The notes beneath the pieces were generated by a model. It ran no database searches. It worked only from the letters and a program-made list of their open reading frames with translations, and was not told where the DNA came from. From contig CACEOC010000001.1 in the NCBI GenBank assembly GCA_902561075.1, positions 1-64,000 on the forward strand: a stretch of DNA of 64,000 bases, in the 5' to 3' direction. This document shows, piece by piece, positions 33,839-40,209 of the stretch (within the stretch, counting starts at the first letter, position 1; the number at the start of each line of letters is the position of its first letter). The translations under genes and the position numbers were made by a program. This stretch comes from an uncultured Pelagibacteraceae bacterium. GTDB lineage: Bacteria > Pseudomonadota > Alphaproteobacteria > Pelagibacterales > Pelagibacteraceae.

Positions 33839-34501
33839 TTACTTTTGCGGGTCAGGTACTTTTCTTAAGTAAGGCTTTATTGTTTCCCAGCCATCAGGAT
33901 ATATTTTTTTTGCTTCCTCATTAGTTACTTTAGGAACGATAATTACATCCTCTCCTGGTTTCCAATCTGCAGGCGTTGCAATTTTATGTTTTGCTGTTCT
34001 CTGCATAGAGTCTATTGCTCTTAAAATTTCAGCAAAATTTCTGCCAGTTGTCATTGGGTATGTAAGGAATAATCCAATTCTTTTATCAGGCCTGATGATA
34101 TAAACTGTTCTAACAGTTTCGTTATCTACCGCAGTTCTGCCCATTGAAGTAGTTCCCGCATCACCCTCTAACATGTTATATAACTTTGCTACTTCCAATT
34201 TTTCGTCTGCAACAATTGGATACTCTGGTTTCATTCCACATACATCTGTAATATCTTCTAACCATTTTTCGTGATCAGAAACTGGGTCTACGGATAATCC
34301 CATTACTTTTACATTTCTTGCATCAAAATCTGGTTTCATTCTTGCTAAAGCACCTAACTCAGTAGTACAAACTGGTGTAAAATCTTTAGGATGTGAAAAT
34401 AGCACTCCCCAACTATCTCCAAGCCATTCGTGAAATTTTATCTTCCCCATTTGGGTTTGTGCTGTAAAATCTGGTGCAACACTATTAATTTTTAAAGTCA
34501 T
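33839..34501 (-). CDS. 1-Cys peroxiredoxin (PRDX6-like)
   Basis: A 220-aa peroxiredoxin. The peroxidatic cysteine is in KDFTPVCTTELG near residue 46, TSMGRTAVDNETVRTVYIIRP near 118-140 is the conserved active-site arginine region, and the C-terminal DWKPGEDVIIVP is typical of the 1-Cys/Prx6 group. It reduces hydrogen peroxide and organic hydroperoxides in the cytoplasm. An AAGGAG ribosome site precedes the ATG by 7 bases. It is divergent from the sulfide:quinone oxidoreductase gene, so it may answer the same oxidative or sulfide stress signal; the shared 128 bases hold an 18-base palindrome. Confidence 0.95.
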   Translation of the reverse strand: MTLKINSVAPDFTAQTQMGKIKFHEWLGDSWGVLFSHPKDFTPVCTTELGALARMKPDFDARNVKVMGLSVDPVSDHEKWLEDITDVCGMKPEYPIVADEKLEVAKLYNMLEGDAGTTSMGRTAVDNETVRTVYIIRPDKRIGLFLTYPMTTGRNFAEILRAIDSMQRTAKHKIATPADWKPGEDVIIVPKVTNEEAKKIYPDGWETIKPYLRKVPDPQK

Positions 34502-34611
34502 TAAAGTCTCCTTATATTTTAATTAGAACTATTATAAATAAATAAAGCAGATATTTCAACGATTTTGGAAACTAAACAACTTTTAAGACGTATATTAAAT
34601 TGTCTATAAAG

Positions 34612-34629
34612 ATGTTAAAATTTTAACAT
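34612..34629. promoter_or_regulatory. Perfect 18-bp palindrome abutting the sqr start codon
   Basis: ATGTTAAAATTTTAACAT is fully self-complementary and ends at the base before the ATG of the sulfide:quinone oxidoreductase gene. A TATAAA stretch lies just upstream. Binding of a dimeric repressor here would block both transcription and ribosome access; the same bases could also fold in RNA and hide the start codon. No regulator gene lies nearby. Confidence 0.6.
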
Positions 34630-35862
34630 ATGAGCCATTCAAATATATTAATCGTGGGTGGAGGATGCGCAGGAATTGCTGTCGCTTCAAGAATAAATAA
34701 TTTAAAATCTGATTTGAGTATCTCAATAATAGAACCTTCAGAAAAATCATTATATCAAGCTGCATGGACTTTAGTTGGTGCTGGAGCATATGATGTTGGA
34801 AATACAATTAAACCAATGTCTGAAGTAATGCCTAAATATGTTAAATGGATAAAAGAATATGCAGAAGAATTTATTCCAGAAAAAAATTCAGTTAAAACAA
34901 ATAAAGGAAACTATACTTACGATTATCTCGTTGTATGCCCAGGATTAAAGTTAAATTTTGATGGAGTAAAGGGTTTAAAAGAACATTTAGGCAAAAATAA
35001 TGTATGCACAAATTATTCTGCTGATATGGCTACCTATACTTGGGAATGTTTAAAAAAATTAGATGGTGGAACATTGTTATTCACAGAACCACCAATGCCG
35101 ATTAAATGCGCGGGTGCTCCTCAAAAAATTGCTTACCTTGCTGCTGATCATTTAAAGAAAAAAGGTAAATTAAAAGATAGCCATTTAGAGTTCTTGTGTG
35201 CAAAACCAGTTATTTTTGGTGTGCCTCATTTTCAAGGACCATTAAATGAAATATGTGACAGTTATGGAATAAAAAGAAGTTTTCAACACAATTTAATTTC
35301 TGTTGATGGAAATAGCAAAGAAGCTGTATTTAAGCAATCTGATAAAGATGGAAACACAAAAGAAACAACTAAAAAATTTGATTTTATTCATGTTACCCCA
35401 CCACAGACATCGCCAGACTTTGTTAAAAATAGTCCATTGGCAGATGCTGGTGGATGGGTTGATGTTGATCATAAGGTAGGAACTTTAAGACACACAAAGT
35501 TTGATAATGTTTATAGTTTGGGAGATGTAATGAATGCTCCAAATGCAAAAACAGGTGCAGCTGTCAGAAAACAGGCTCCAATAGTAGCACATAACATTAT
35601 TAAAGACATAAACAAATCTGCAGATAGCTACAGACACTATGACGGTTATGGGGCATGTCCTCTAACTGTAGCTTATGGAAAAGTGATGCTTGCAGAGTTT
35701 TGTTACGCAGGAAAAGTAACACCTAGTTTTCCTTTTGACCCAACAAAACCTAGCTCTTTATATTGGCAAATGAAATCAAAACTTTTTCCTTGGTTACAAT
35801 GGAATGTAATGTTTAAAGGAAAAGAATGGGCAAAACCAACTCATAAACCTCTTGAAAAATAA
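34630..35862 (+). CDS. sqr: Sulfide:quinone oxidoreductase-like flavoprotein
   Basis: A 410-aa FAD enzyme. FAD loop ILIVGGGCAGIAVASRI lies near residue 5, IEPSEKSLYQAAWTLVGAG near 35-50, and TEPPMPIKCAGAPQKIAYLAADHL near 155 (MPIKCAGAP is the SQR cysteine region). FDNVYSLGDV lies near 295 and a C-terminal amphipathic segment follows for membrane contact. SQRs oxidise hydrogen sulfide at the membrane, pass electrons to quinone and give sulfane sulfur to glutathione or similar acceptors. The adjoining persulfide dioxygenase gene, 31 bases downstream, supports this. Confidence 0.9.
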   Translation: MSHSNILIVGGGCAGIAVASRINNLKSDLSISIIEPSEKSLYQAAWTLVGAGAYDVGNTIKPMSEVMPKYVKWIKEYAEEFIPEKNSVKTNKGNYTYDYLVVCPGLKLNFDGVKGLKEHLGKNNVCTNYSADMATYTWECLKKLDGGTLLFTEPPMPIKCAGAPQKIAYLAADHLKKKGKLKDSHLEFLCAKPVIFGVPHFQGPLNEICDSYGIKRSFQHNLISVDGNSKEAVFKQSDKDGNTKETTKKFDFIHVTPPQTSPDFVKNSPLADAGGWVDVDHKVGTLRHTKFDNVYSLGDVMNAPNAKTGAAVRKQAPIVAHNIIKDINKSADSYRHYDGYGACPLTVAYGKVMLAEFCYAGKVTPSFPFDPTKPSSLYWQMKSKLFPWLQWNVMFKGKEWAKPTHKPLEK

Positions 35863-35893
35863 TCTCAGGTAAATAATATAATATTATTACCTT

Positions 35894-36586
35894 ATGATAT
35901 TTGAACAATTATTTGATACAAAATCTTCTACCTACACCTATGTAATTTCTAGCGGTGAAGGGCGTGAAGCCCTAATAATTGATCCAGTGATTGAACATAC
36001 AGAAGAGTATTTAAAAATGTTGGAAAAATTAAAATTAAAATTAGTTAAAGTAATTGATACGCATATTCATGCTGACCATATTACGGCTTTAAACGAATTA
36101 AATAAAAGAACAAGTTGTGTAAGAATAATGGGAGAAAATTCTAAATCTGAAGTAATTGACCTGAAAATTAAAGATAACGAAAAAATTAATATTGAAAATA
36201 TTCAATTAAAGGCAATGTATACACCTGGACATACAGACTGCTCATATAGTTATTTAATGAATGATAGAGTTTTTACAGGTGATACACTTTTAATAAATGG
36301 AACTGGAAGGACCGATTTTCAAAATGGGAGTTCTTACGATGCTTATGAATCCTTATTTAATAAACTTTTGAAATTACCAGAAAAAACTCTTGTATACCCT
36401 GCTCATGATTATAACGGAAAAAAATTCTCAACTATTGAAAAGGAAAGAAATAACAATCCTCGACTACAGGTAAAATCTAAACAAGAATACGCGGATATCA
36501 TGGAAAATCTAAATCTTTCAAATCCTAAGATGATGGATGTTGCTGTACCAGCGAATGTTAAGGGTCTTACTTTAGATCAAATCTAG
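35894..36586 (+). CDS. Persulfide dioxygenase-like MBL-fold protein (ETHE1/Blh type)
   Basis: A 230-aa metallo-beta-lactamase-fold protein with THIHADH near residue 56 (metal ligands), YTPGHTDCSYSY near 112, TGDTLLINGTGRTDFQNG near 132, and YPAHDYNG near 175. These are the marks of ETHE1-type persulfide dioxygenases, which use one iron to oxidise glutathione persulfide to sulfite. It follows the sqr gene on the same strand, the usual arrangement for sulfide oxidation to sulfite. It lacks a rhodanese fusion. Confidence 0.9.
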   Translation: MIFEQLFDTKSSTYTYVISSGEGREALIIDPVIEHTEEYLKMLEKLKLKLVKVIDTHIHADHITALNELNKRTSCVRIMGENSKSEVIDLKIKDNEKINIENIQLKAMYTPGHTDCSYSYLMNDRVFTGDTLLINGTGRTDFQNGSSYDAYESLFNKLLKLPEKTLVYPAHDYNGKKFSTIEKERNNNPRLQVKSKQEYADIMENLNLSNPKMMDVAVPANVKGLTLDQI

Positions 36587-36633
36587 TCAAAATTATAAGT
36601 TGTATTTAGAATTATAATAATTATATATTTCCT

Positions 36634-36753
36634 ATGGTTTGCAAAAATCAAAAATGTAAATGTAGAAACTGCACTAATTATAAATGTGCTTGTAAAGATA
36701 ACAATGACTGTGTTTGTAAATCAAAATCCAATTGTTGTTGTTGTAACGACTAA
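36634..36753 (+). CDS. 39-aa metallothionein-like protein with 12 cysteines
   Basis: This gene is absent from the ORF track because of its length. The ATG at 36634 opens a 39-codon frame ending at TAA 36753. Twelve residues are cysteine (3, 8, 10, 13, 18, 20, 26, 28, 34-37): a series of CxC pairs with lysines between, then CCCC at the end. There are no long hydrophobic runs and no Shine-Dalgarno. The density and CxC spacing are as in metallothioneins, which bind zinc, copper or cadmium thiolate clusters. It lies 47 bases after the persulfide dioxygenase gene and 31 before cysE on the same strand, inside a sulfur module. It matches no bacterial family that I can name. Confidence 0.75.
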   Translation: MVCKNQKCKCRNCTNYKCACKDNNDCVCKSKSNCCCCND

Positions 36754-36784
36754 AATTAAATTTAATTAAATCTATTAACTAATT

Positions 36785-37369
36785 ATGAATGAATTTTTAG
36801 AGTCTATAATAAAAAGAGATCCAGCTGCTAAGTCAAAACTGTCAATAGTCCTAACATATCCTGGAGCAAAAGCAGTTCTCATGCATAAGATTGCAAACTT
36901 TTTTGCAGTTGCAAAGTTTGATTTGATTGCAAGAATAATATCTCAGTTTTCAAGATTTGTGACTGGAATTGAAATTCATCCAAAAGCTAAAATTGGAAAA
37001 AATTTATTTATTGATCATGGCATGGGCGTAGTAATTGGAGAGACATCTGATATCGGAGATAATGTAACAATTTATCATAACGTGACACTTGGAGGAATTT
37101 CACCTAGTATAAATTCTGAAAATCAAAGAGAAACTAAAAGACACCCAACTCTTCAGGATCATGTTGTAGTTGGTTCGGGAGCTCAAGTGCTTGGACCTAT
37201 TATAGTTGGTAAGAATGCAAAAATTGGAGCAAACGCTGTAGTGACTAAAGATGTTCCAGAAAATGGAGTTATGGTAGGTATACCTGCAAAAAATGTTGGA
37301 ACAGCTACTGAAGAATTTAAACCTTATGGTATAAGTGACGAAGAAAAAAATGAAGAATTTTCACAATAA
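36785..37369 (+). CDS. cysE: Serine O-acetyltransferase
   Basis: A 194-aa left-handed beta-helix acetyltransferase of the short EpsC/CysE form. The hexapeptide domain has [30 protein letters not shown] near residues 77-105 (catalytic His and Asp) and [16 protein letters not shown], with a C-terminal tail acidic and polar. It acetylates L-serine with acetyl-CoA, making O-acetylserine for cysteine synthesis. The following cysK overlaps it, so the two subunits of the cysteine synthase complex are made together. Confidence 0.95.
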
Positions 37370-38351
37370 TTTTGTCTCAGGGATTGGGAATACACCCTTA
37401 ATTAAATTAAGAGCTGCATCTGAAGTAACTGGATGCAATATTTATGGTAAAGCAGAATATCTAAACCCGGGCGGATCTGTAAAAGATAGAGCTGCATTAG
37501 CTTTAATTAAAGACGCTGAAAATAGGAAATTAATTTCTAAAGGAGGAACTATTGTTGAGGGAACAGCTGGCAATACCGGAATCGGACTTTGTCTTATTGG
37601 AAATTCGGTAGGTTATAAAACTGTAATTGTTATGAATGATAATCAAACACAAGAAAAAAAAGATATGCTCAAAAATATGGGTGCAGAATTAAAATTAGTT
37701 CCTCCTAAACCATATAAAGATGATGGTAACTACGTAAAAGTCGCAGGAAGACTAGCTGAAGAATTAAAAAGTTCAAATAACCACGGAGTAGTTTGGGCTA
37801 ATCAATTTGATAATACTGCTAATCTAAAAGGACACTACGAAAGCACAGGTCCTGAAATATGGGACCAAACAGACGGAAAAGTTGATGGGTTTGTTTGTGC
37901 ATCTGGAACTGGTGGAACAATAGCTGGTGTAAGCTCATATTTAAAAGAAAAAAATAAAGATATTAAAATTTATTTATCTGATCCAACAGGTTCTTCTCTC
38001 TATAATTATATAGAAAATGGCGAACTTAAAAGTGAGGGAGGATCAATTACAGAAGGAATTGGCTCAAGTAGAGTTACAGCAAATTTCGCTGAAGCTAAAA
38101 TTGATGGTGCTTTTTCCATAAGTGATAATGAGTCTTTGCCTGTTTTATTTGATTTAATTGAAAACGAGGGATTAAGTCTTGGAACAAGTTGTGGAGTAAA
38201 TATTGCTGGTGCAATTAGATTAGGAAAAATATTAGGACCAGGCAAAACAATTGTAACAATTCTATGCGATAAATCAGACAAATACAACTCTAAGATGTTT
38301 AACAAGAAATTTTTATTGGAAAAAGGGCTTCCAGTACCTGGTTGGATATAA
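37350..38351 (+). CDS. cysK: Cysteine synthase
   Basis: A 333-aa PLP enzyme from the ATG at 37350. The ORF track starts five codons earlier at GTG inside cysE; either start overlaps cysE, by 20 or 35 bases. Marks are [11 protein letters not shown] near residue 10, [13 protein letters not shown] near 37 (the PLP lysine), [12 protein letters not shown] near 67 (substrate loop), [10 protein letters not shown] near 180, and [16 protein letters not shown] near 272. It joins sulfide to O-acetylserine to form cysteine. Placed after sulfide-oxidising genes, it offers an assimilatory outlet for the same sulfide. Confidence 0.94.
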
Positions 38352-38431
38352 AAAACCACATACCAGTATTGTCATAAAACGTTTACTTTTCTAAGGTATA
38401 TTTAAATAAATTTAACTTTGAAAGGATTATT

Positions 38432-38716
38432 ATGAAAGATTATTTAGCAACTCACGTTTTTAAATCAGAGGAAATGAAGAAAAAATTTCACGAAGTTGTA
38501 GGCTCAACTTCTCCAGAGGATCTTAAAAAAGGTGTAAACGGGGAAAAAGCCGTGTGTCATATGACAATGATGGGCGCAGGAAGCTCAATGAAAATGTATT
38601 GCAAATGGCAAGCGGAAAGTCCTGAGGCTATTATTGATCAATTAGGAGATATGAATAATTTTTTTGATACCACTTCAGAGGAATGTTCGCAAGTCATGGA
38701 CTTTTCTAAAATGTAA
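38432..38716 (+). CDS. 94-aa conserved-type small protein, unknown
   Basis: A soluble 94-residue protein with three cysteines (42, 57, 85), rich in methionine. The segment MKMYCKWQAESPEAIID resembles the second strand-helix unit of ferredoxin-like small proteins, but that is only an impression. An AAAGGA ribosome site precedes the ATG. It is the first gene of a run of ten small same-strand genes and lies about 80 bases after cysK. Function unknown. Confidence 0.7.
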   Translation: MKDYLATHVFKSEEMKKKFHEVVGSTSPEDLKKGVNGEKAVCHMTMMGAGSSMKMYCKWQAESPEAIIDQLGDMNNFFDTTSEECSQVMDFSKM

Positions 38717-38747
38717 ATTAAAAACAAATTAAATTAAAGGAGGAAAA

Positions 38748-39131
38748 ATGGATGTAAAAGAACGAACGAGAAAAGCATATGAGCTTTTTGGTAAAGGTGA
38801 TATGGAAACTTTTTTTAATGAAATGATTGATGATAGTATTGTATGGACATTTCCAGGTAAAGAAGGTGTTCATCCGTTATCAGGAGTACATAAAGGTAAA
38901 CAAGCTATGATGGCTGCGATGTCAAAAATTCCATCAATCTGGCCAAATTTTCATTTAAAAATTTTAGACATGATCAGTGAGGGTAATAAAGTATTTGTTA
39001 GAGTACATGCAACTGCTGATAATATGGATACTATATTTGGTCATTATTTTGAATCTAGTGATGAAGGAAAAACTAAAGTTATGATGACTTTTGACGATAC
39101 TCTAAGCATGTTTAATGCGATGAAAAAATAA
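38748..39131 (+). CDS. NTF2-like/SnoaL-type protein
   Basis: A 127-aa cone-shaped-fold protein. RTRKAYELFGKGDMETFFNEMIDDSIVWTFPG near the start is the classic SnoaL/NTF2 helix followed by the first strand, then GVHKGKQAMMAAM near 47, and strands DMISEGNKVFVRVHAT. Many members are small-molecule isomerases or hydrolases; others only bind ligands. A strong AAAGGAGG-type site precedes the ATG by 5 bases, uncommon in this genome. Second gene of the small-protein run. The ligand is unknown. Confidence 0.8.
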   Translation: MDVKERTRKAYELFGKGDMETFFNEMIDDSIVWTFPGKEGVHPLSGVHKGKQAMMAAMSKIPSIWPNFHLKILDMISEGNKVFVRVHATADNMDTIFGHYFESSDEGKTKVMMTFDDTLSMFNAMKK

Positions 39132-39158
39132 ATTATTTTAGATAAGGAAGGAAAAAAC

Positions 39159-39449
39159 ATGGAAAAGGAAATGTTAGCTTTAGTTAATCTTAAAGAAGGT
39201 AAACTAGAAAGTTTTATGGGTTGGATGCAATCTGACGAAGGTATGGAGGTACGAAAAAGTGTTGCTTATCCTGAAAAAACCATAGGAGGAATGAAACCTG
39301 ATAAAAGCGGTATTTTGTTCAAAGTTTCAGTTCATAATGAGGCAGGAATGAAAGAATTCGTTGCTGGAAAAAATCCTACAGCTAAAGCAATCTATGAAGA
39401 ATGTGTGGACAATGTTCAGCTTTGGGAATTAAAAAAAGTGGATTTTTAA
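39159..39449 (+). CDS. 96-aa small soluble protein, ferredoxin-like fold suspected
   Basis: A 96-residue protein with alternating strand/helix character (EMLALVNLKEGKLESFMGWMQS; SGILFKVSVHNEAGMKEFV; NVQLWELKKVD). This suggests a dimeric alpha/beta-barrel fold as in GYD or antibiotic-monooxygenase-like proteins, without a recognised signature. A strong AAGGAAGGA ribosome site precedes it. Third of the run of small genes. Function unknown. Confidence 0.65.
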   Translation: MEKEMLALVNLKEGKLESFMGWMQSDEGMEVRKSVAYPEKTIGGMKPDKSGILFKVSVHNEAGMKEFVAGKNPTAKAIYEECVDNVQLWELKKVDF

Positions 39450-39451
39450 TT

Positions 39452-39829
39452 GTGAGAAAATTTTTTATTATTTTGTTTAGTTTGACTTTTATTAATAATG
39501 TAAATGCTGGAGATTTAAGTAAAGAGAAAACTGAAAAGGCATGGGATTGTGTTGGTATATATATGGCTAATTACTTTTTGCCATCTGGAGAAACTTTTGA
39601 ATACAGTATGAAGGAAAAGTCTATGGCTTCTGTTAAAGTGTGGAAAACTTATGCTTTAGAGATTGGTATTAAAGAAAAAGACTGGGACGACGGAACTAAT
39701 AAGGCAGTGGATAAACATTATGGTTCAAAATATAATAAAGAGCTAACTGATAATTGCCATGCCTTTTTAGAGGAGACTATTCCAAACGGTAAAGACCGTG
39801 TCGAAAAAGTTGTTCAAACCTTATATTAA
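39452..39829 (+). CDS. Secreted 125-aa two-cysteine protein, first of a tandem pair
   Basis: The listed ORF begins at 39401 inside the preceding gene. A signal peptide (RKFFIILFSLTFINNVNA) shows the real start is the GTG at 39452, two bases past the upstream stop. The mature part is about 105 residues, helical and charged, with two cysteines (KAWDCVG and DNCHAF). Length, signal peptide and both cysteine contexts match the next gene, so the two are tandem paralogs. A disulfide-bonded periplasmic protein is likely. No family is recognised. Confidence 0.7.
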   Translation: MRKFFIILFSLTFINNVNAGDLSKEKTEKAWDCVGIYMANYFLPSGETFEYSMKEKSMASVKVWKTYALEIGIKEKDWDDGTNKAVDKHYGSKYNKELTDNCHAFLEETIPNGKDRVEKVVQTLY

Positions 39830-39831
39830 AA

Positions 39832-40209
39832 ATGAAGAAAACATTTTTAAGTTTGATAATCATTTTTTACACTACTATTTCTTTTGGAGGAGGTCATATA
39901 ACTAAAGAGGATAAGGAAAAAGCTATAAAATGCTTGGGTCATTATACTTCAATTTCGTTCATACCTGCGAATGAAATCGAGGCTATCAGACTTGAATATG
40001 CTTTAGCCTCTTACAAAATTGTAAGAGAATATCTACTAAATGAAAAAGTTAAAGGTGAAGAAATTAATAAAGGGACTAATGAAGAATTGGACAAATTAAT
40101 TGGTAAACCATTTAACGAAGAAAGGAATAATAAATGTAATTCATTCATTTATGATTTGATACCGGGTTCTAAAGATCAAATCGAAAAACTAAGAGGAACA
40201 TTAGAATAA
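39832..40209 (+). CDS. Secreted 125-aa two-cysteine protein, second of a tandem pair
   Basis: A 125-aa protein with a signal peptide (TFLSLIIIFYTTISFG). Like its upstream neighbour it has one cysteine early (KAIKCLGHY) and one late (NNKCNSF) with helical segments between. Shared marks are the K-A-x-x-C-x-G start, a lone G-T-N motif in the middle, and I-P-x-x-K-D near the end. It starts 2 bases after the paralog's stop. Probably periplasmic and disulfide-bonded; loosely comparable in size and cysteine layout to acid-stress chaperones such as HdeA, which is only a hint. Confidence 0.72.
   Translation: MKKTFLSLIIIFYTTISFGGGHITKEDKEKAIKCLGHYTSISFIPANEIEAIRLEYALASYKIVREYLLNEKVKGEEINKGTNEELDKLIGKPFNEERNNKCNSFIYDLIPGSKDQIEKLRGTLE

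Follow-up and report, generated by a model that had tools for sequence, protein, structure and literature searches.

Gene content of the locus

The window, that is, the whole 64,000-nucleotide stretch of DNA that was analysed, comes from an uncultured Pelagibacteraceae bacterium and contains a short open reading frame (ORF) within a module for persulfide oxidation and cysteine synthesis (Table 1). The initial annotation had described a 39-codon frame with 12 cysteines in CxC and CCCC patterns, located between the genes for a persulfide dioxygenase (PDO) and a serine acetyltransferase. The translation of positions 36634-36753 (+), MVCKNQKCKCRNCTNYKCACKDNNDCVCKSKSNCCCCND*, agreed with this description, containing CxC motifs and one CCCC run, and PDB and NCBIfam matches identified both neighbors as named. 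The further claim of a real metallothionein-like gene in a sulfide/cysteine module was upheld by conservation across homologues and by a fixed slot. The protein has the general composition of metallothioneins (approximately 20-35% Cys in CxC/CC arrays, with aromatics and His rare or absent). Read on the opposite strand, exactly the interval 36634-36753 contains a stop codon.

Table 1. Positions of the genes and sequence elements in and around the ORF
Feature	Position	Strand	Basis or remark
1-Cys peroxiredoxin, divergent neighbor	33839..34501	-	AhpC-TSA, 1-cysPrx_C; beside PDO in nearly all loci
Sulfide:quinone oxidoreductase (SQR)-like flavoprotein, variable	34630..35862	+	NF049943 type III SQR, E 1.9e-61, below cut-off
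ETHE1-like persulfide dioxygenase (PDO, MBL fold), upstream neighbor	35894..36586	+	Pfam Lactamase_B; nearest PDB chains include 4ysb_A, 4chl_A (human ETHE1)
-35-like hexamer TTGTAT, -34..-29 from ATG	36600..36605	+	Conserved TTG at -34..-32
-10-like hexamer TATATA, -12..-7 from ATG	36622..36627	+	Conserved TATAT at -12..-8
Metallothionein-like ORF, 39 aa, 12 Cys	36634..36753	+	Translation, family alignments, codon analysis
Terminal RNA hairpin, weak in the window copy	36734..36750	+	Arms 36734-36739 GTTGTT (Cys codons) and 36745-36750 AACGAC (last two codons); covariation in relatives
Serine O-acetyltransferase (CysE/EpsC), 31 nt downstream of the ORF	36785..37369	+	NF041874, TIGR01172 above cut-offs
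Cysteine synthase (CysK), GTG start as listed, overlapping cysE	37335..38351	+	NF007989 515.8 bits, cut-off 387

Profile searches against Pfam, NCBIfam, and PDB gave no family match for the ORF protein, SmtA/BmtA included. PDB profile matches to mucin-5B and to LDL receptor modules were rejected as coincidences of cysteine spacing. AlphaFold2 predicted no regular structure at low confidence (pLDDT 69.8, pTM 0.36), and a Foldseek search with this weak model returned no match. A literature search combining metallothionein and SAR11 found nothing relevant.

The slot between PDO and cysE was common to every inspected true match except two, L062 and L118. In L062, the ORF and cysE were kept and PDO was missing upstream. 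In L118 (G262:C5), cysE-cysK was gone from beside the ORF, while the ORF, its promoter, and its hairpin were intact; the ORF was followed by a gene related to the one at 39159 in the window, and a search of the rest of this genome, which is 66% complete, revealed no close cysE. The SQR-like gene was present in some loci and cleanly missing from others, with L086, L114, L122, and others differing in this respect from L002, L095, and others; the module exchanges its SQR-like part independently of the metallothionein-like gene. Several small ORFs lie downstream of cysK in the window (38432-40209). Pfam matched none of those at 38432, 39159, and 39832 at E<=0.01; that at 39401 had a single match, below the cut-off.

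Distribution, conservation, and selection

A first protein search found the ORF in 13 of 150 relatives, all within one of 11 genera. A profile search of 399 genomes of this genus then returned 79 with matches at E<=0.1, including two or three spurious ones; one weak match, G326 (L103), was dropped, with no module present. Beyond the genus, searches of 385 genomes of the class and 197 of the order yielded no relative. Class-wide matches beyond the genus (L039-L046) were taken as chance because none shows a comparable short Cys-rich ORF. In a collection of 84,980 species, a query with one pattern of the 39-aa class recovered 39 loci, all from Pelagibacteraceae. Viral contigs and plasmids contained no relative of the ORF, and in a phage collection only cysE/cysK-like DNA was matched. 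Among the genomes searched, the family was thus found only in one SAR11 genus.

Within that genus, PDO was present in 146 of 201 genomes, and its copies fell into two groups by identity to the window copy, one at approximately 75% or more (67 genomes) and the other at approximately 60-69% (79 genomes). Of the 67 genomes with the closer PDO, approximately 42 carried a full-length ORF and 2 an in-frame shortened form; the rest had no ORF, 7 of them being judged by a PDO score equal to that of opened loci. These presence counts are lower bounds because many genomes are incomplete. The 20 opened loci of the second PDO group had neither the module nor the ORF. Where cysE still stood next to PDO in opened loci lacking the ORF, the gap between the two genes was only 24-51 nt. 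In-frame shortened ORFs at L128:2720-2779 (19 aa) and L139:1857-1922 (-) (21 aa) retained the start, the stop, and the terminal CCC. On a quick tree of PDO and CysE from 82 loci, the pattern of presence and absence required at least five changes. The ORF was lost in some relatives with no other change in the module, which counts against a function of the encoded protein.

The family set comprised 70 distinct proteins and 86 distinct coding sequences from Pelagibacteraceae, 84 of the latter being full length. Its length classes were 37-40 aa, 36 aa (MACNNSHCKCKNCSCDRCVCKNCDCKPSSENCCCNK), and a single member of 44 aa. Stops and frameshifts in relatives, which the initial annotation had named as evidence against the gene, were found in none of the 84 distinct full-length coding sequences. 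Unconserved cysteines, the other such sign, were not found either: 11 Cys columns were kept in at least 83 of the 84, with both TGT and TGC in use at each, and 11 of the 12 cysteines of the window protein fell in these family-invariant columns. In the family alignment, indels were absent between C3 and C20 and the CxC spacing was fixed, and length varied mainly in the linker from C20 to the next CxC. The 44-aa member (L144:2759-2893) has 13 cysteines and an additional CxC inserted in this linker, which suggests growth by a Cys module.

Codon-level selection, proposed as a check in the initial annotation, proved to be purifying on Cys and non-Cys codons alike. For the Cys codons of the 84 coding sequences, dN/dS was 0.005; for the non-Cys codons it was 0.54 by pooled counting. 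Across 39 disjoint nearest pairs, the single-base differences in non-Cys codons were 93 nonsynonymous and 91 synonymous, compared with an expectation of 71-80% nonsynonymous, and omega for these codons was 0.25-0.43 (p<1e-8). The N-terminal half, which lies outside the hairpin, gave an omega of 0.39 (p=6e-6). In addition, N5, N12, D16, and a conserved Pro were nearly fixed while their synonymous codons varied. This deficit of nonsynonymous changes, together with fixed non-Cys residues encoded by varying codons, indicates that amino acids matter beyond the Cys codons. Far removed from a chance frame, the ORF is a genuine gene under purifying selection at the protein level, on Cys and non-Cys residues. 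From the absence of the ORF, or its in-frame shortening, in some relatives, one might suspect an intergenic frame that is spurious or in decay, but this explanation is already refuted by the 84 distinct intact coding sequences and their strong codon-level constraint, and retains virtually no probability.

Promoter and terminal hairpin

Upstream sequences were anchored on the start codon and grouped into 18 clusters with mutual identity of <70%. TTG at -34..-32 occurred in 72-89% of the clusters and TATAT at -12..-8 in 83-89%. The same promoter geometry was not general upstream of the other genes of the window. When the sigma-70 match was allowed to lie anywhere, its best score hardly exceeded that of shuffles; only the fixed-position profile was convincing. 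The window copy also contains a perfect TATAAT at 36613-36618. Transcription starting approximately 7 bases beyond the -10 box would begin on or next to the ATG, and a near-leaderless message is therefore predicted. The conserved motif thus predicts a promoter belonging to the ORF itself, with the transcript start at the ORF. In genomes lacking the ORF, cysE is preceded by a TATATA at a comparable position. This suggests that the leader position of the cysE-cysK unit is the one held by the ORF.

At the other end of the ORF, the CCC codons of the 39-aa class form base pairs with the stop codon and the two codons before it. In 17 aligned loci, 94.9% of cells paired and both sides changed in 3 of 8 pairs; 0 of 500 shuffles, which ignore relatedness, reached the covariation score, and slid registers were far worse. 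RNAalifold, run over approximately 200 columns, picked the terminal hairpin as the sole structure. By synonymous-codon resampling, the ORF end was more stable than expected (z<-1) in 42% of 85 sequences; the excess was strong in the clades ending in ...CCCNN and ...CCCNK, and the hairpin was weak in the window clade and the CCCCN clade. A T-run followed the hairpin in 13 of 33 sequences, giving an intrinsic-terminator-like arrangement in several clades, and the hairpin of L053 (6097-6121) was called terminator-like. The window copy had weak energy and received no terminator call. For the intergenic stretch to cysE alone, stability did not exceed that of shuffles (mean z +0.40), and the hairpin emerged only after the ORF end had been added. 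Rfam gave no match in window positions 34400-38600.

These elements raise a serious alternative, missed in the initial annotation, of a cysteine-sensing leader peptide, itself inert, whose rate of translation would report charged Cys-tRNA, with the hairpin over CCC-stop controlling read-through into, or translation of, cysE-cysK. The position directly before cysE-cysK, the predicted near-leaderless promoter, the terminal CCC run inside a covarying hairpin, the T-runs of some clades with the terminator call at L053, and the mycobacterial precedent considered below are all consistent with such a leader. However, residues other than cysteine outside the hairpin would be expected to be free of selection in a leader and are under purifying selection, and near-invariance extends to six cysteines of the N-terminal part, which are well separated from the hairpin. 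Furthermore, L118, although one genome only, retains the ORF, promoter, and hairpin with no adjacent cysE-cysK. Together, these three observations argue against a pure leader. The stop codon inside the hairpin would also fit feedback control poorly because a ribosome finishing translation would block the hairpin. The unremarkable stability of the intergenic stretch and the weakness of the hairpin in two clades, the window clade among them, weigh on the same side, and an inert leader peptide is considered unlikely.

Interpretation and comparison with known systems

The best explanation is that the ORF probably encodes a functional all-cysteine metallothionein-like protein of one SAR11 genus, a putative buffer of metal or sulfane sulfur. 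The initial annotation had offered metal storage, buffering of sulfane sulfur or persulfides, and a cysteine reservoir as candidate roles. The 11-12 thiolates of the protein, in CxC units and a terminal CCC(C), would form a small metal-thiolate cluster with Zn, Cu, or Cd, and this cluster would buffer metal, sulfane sulfur, or both in the cytosol. One short unit would yield both this protein and the enzymes of cysteine synthesis, beside persulfide removal, so that the supply of cysteine would increase along with the demand for thiolates. Spanning the final Cys codons and the stop, the hairpin is most likely a partial terminator or 3'-end element, which would set the ratio of the metallothionein-like protein to CysE/CysK; a cysteine-responsive effect of the hairpin is possible. 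Heavy-metal P1B ATPases (TIGR01525) were found in 0 of 50 genomes of the genus, compared with 14 of 14 control genomes, and their absence provides a rationale for cytosolic sequestration. This absence is unlinked to the presence or absence of the ORF because genomes of both groups are without the ATPase.

Four features favor a protein function, which ranks ahead of a pure leader: the cysteines are arranged in a CxC array, those of the N-terminal part hardly vary, residues other than Cys are constrained, and L118 retains the ORF with no cysE-cysK beside it. Against it, no metallothionein profile and no PDB relative matched the protein, the AlphaFold2 model shows no regular structure, and a cis-acting leader ORF would also account for the place of the ORF ahead of cysE-cysK, its near-leaderless start, and its covarying hairpin. 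The ORF might instead play both roles, as a new bacterial metallothionein-like family in which a putative thiolate buffer is at the same time a cysteine-sensing first ORF, its own translation sensing cysteine and the hairpin tuning cysE-cysK. Such a combination is suggested by selection on the protein and, at the RNA level, by covariation across the Cys codons, but the hairpin is weak in the window copy, and the combined role is put forward as tentative and somewhat doubtful. The weight given to this double role is contained both in that of the protein function and in that of the leader; the probabilities of the protein function and the combined role overlap.

In the ocean, SAR11 bacteria rank with the most abundant cells. 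A conserved all-cysteine protein in a module for persulfide oxidation and cysteine synthesis would offer a testable link among trace metals, sulfane sulfur, and the supply of reduced sulfur. If the leader side were true, cysteine-responsive short ORFs would extend beyond mycobacteria; if it were true in addition to the protein function, one ORF would be selected at both the protein and the RNA level.

Few metallothioneins are known from bacteria, and most of those belong to the SmtA type. The ORF protein resembles SmtA/BmtA/PmtA (PF02069, Metallothio_Pro) in being small, Cys-rich, and presumably cytosolic, with CxC motifs. However, PF02069 matched none of 68 family members and nothing in 34 genomes of the genus, while the control, Synechococcus elongatus, did match. 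The bacterial metallothioneins that have been studied contain His and hydrophobic residues and have a zinc-finger-like fold (PMC10612145). In contrast, the 39-aa class of the window has approximately 30% Cys; His is missing from the window protein and almost so from its class, and occurs once in the 36-aa class. A zinc-finger core is likewise without support from the low-confidence model, which predicts no regular structure, and the divergent gene is a peroxiredoxin rather than an SmtB-like repressor. By profile and ligand set, the family lies outside SmtA/BmtA.

The eukaryotic all-Cys metallothioneins, such as the vertebrate proteins including MT-3, are closer in style, with CxC/CC arrays, no His, and almost no aromatics. 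The likeness is one of composition and motif style only, as no Pfam metallothionein profile or PDB metallothionein chain was matched. According to one report, the cysteines of vertebrate MT-3 bind sulfane sulfur (PMC12618007). MymT, the mycobacterial copper metallothionein, is likewise small, bacterial, rich in Cys, and not of the SmtA type; it belongs to another organism group, and the ORF protein had no family-level match in Pfam or NCBIfam.

The polycysteine leaderless short ORFs (sORFs) of mycobacteria share with the ORF a near-leaderless start (predicted here), a C-terminal Cys run, and a place before a cysteine-metabolism gene. They are described as cysteine-responsive attenuators (Canestrari 2020 via PMC9094748 and PMC13236596; Shell 2015, PMC4633059). 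Six sORFs of Mycobacterium tuberculosis have 25 cysteines in 145 codons (PMC9094748), whereas the present ORF has 11-12 in 36-39 codons, at fixed spacing and with selection on non-Cys residues. Here, moreover, the ORF was retained once with no adjacent cysteine genes, and the hairpin includes the stop codon. By motif and conservation, the ORF is therefore classed as metallothionein-like and its product as a putative metal binder.
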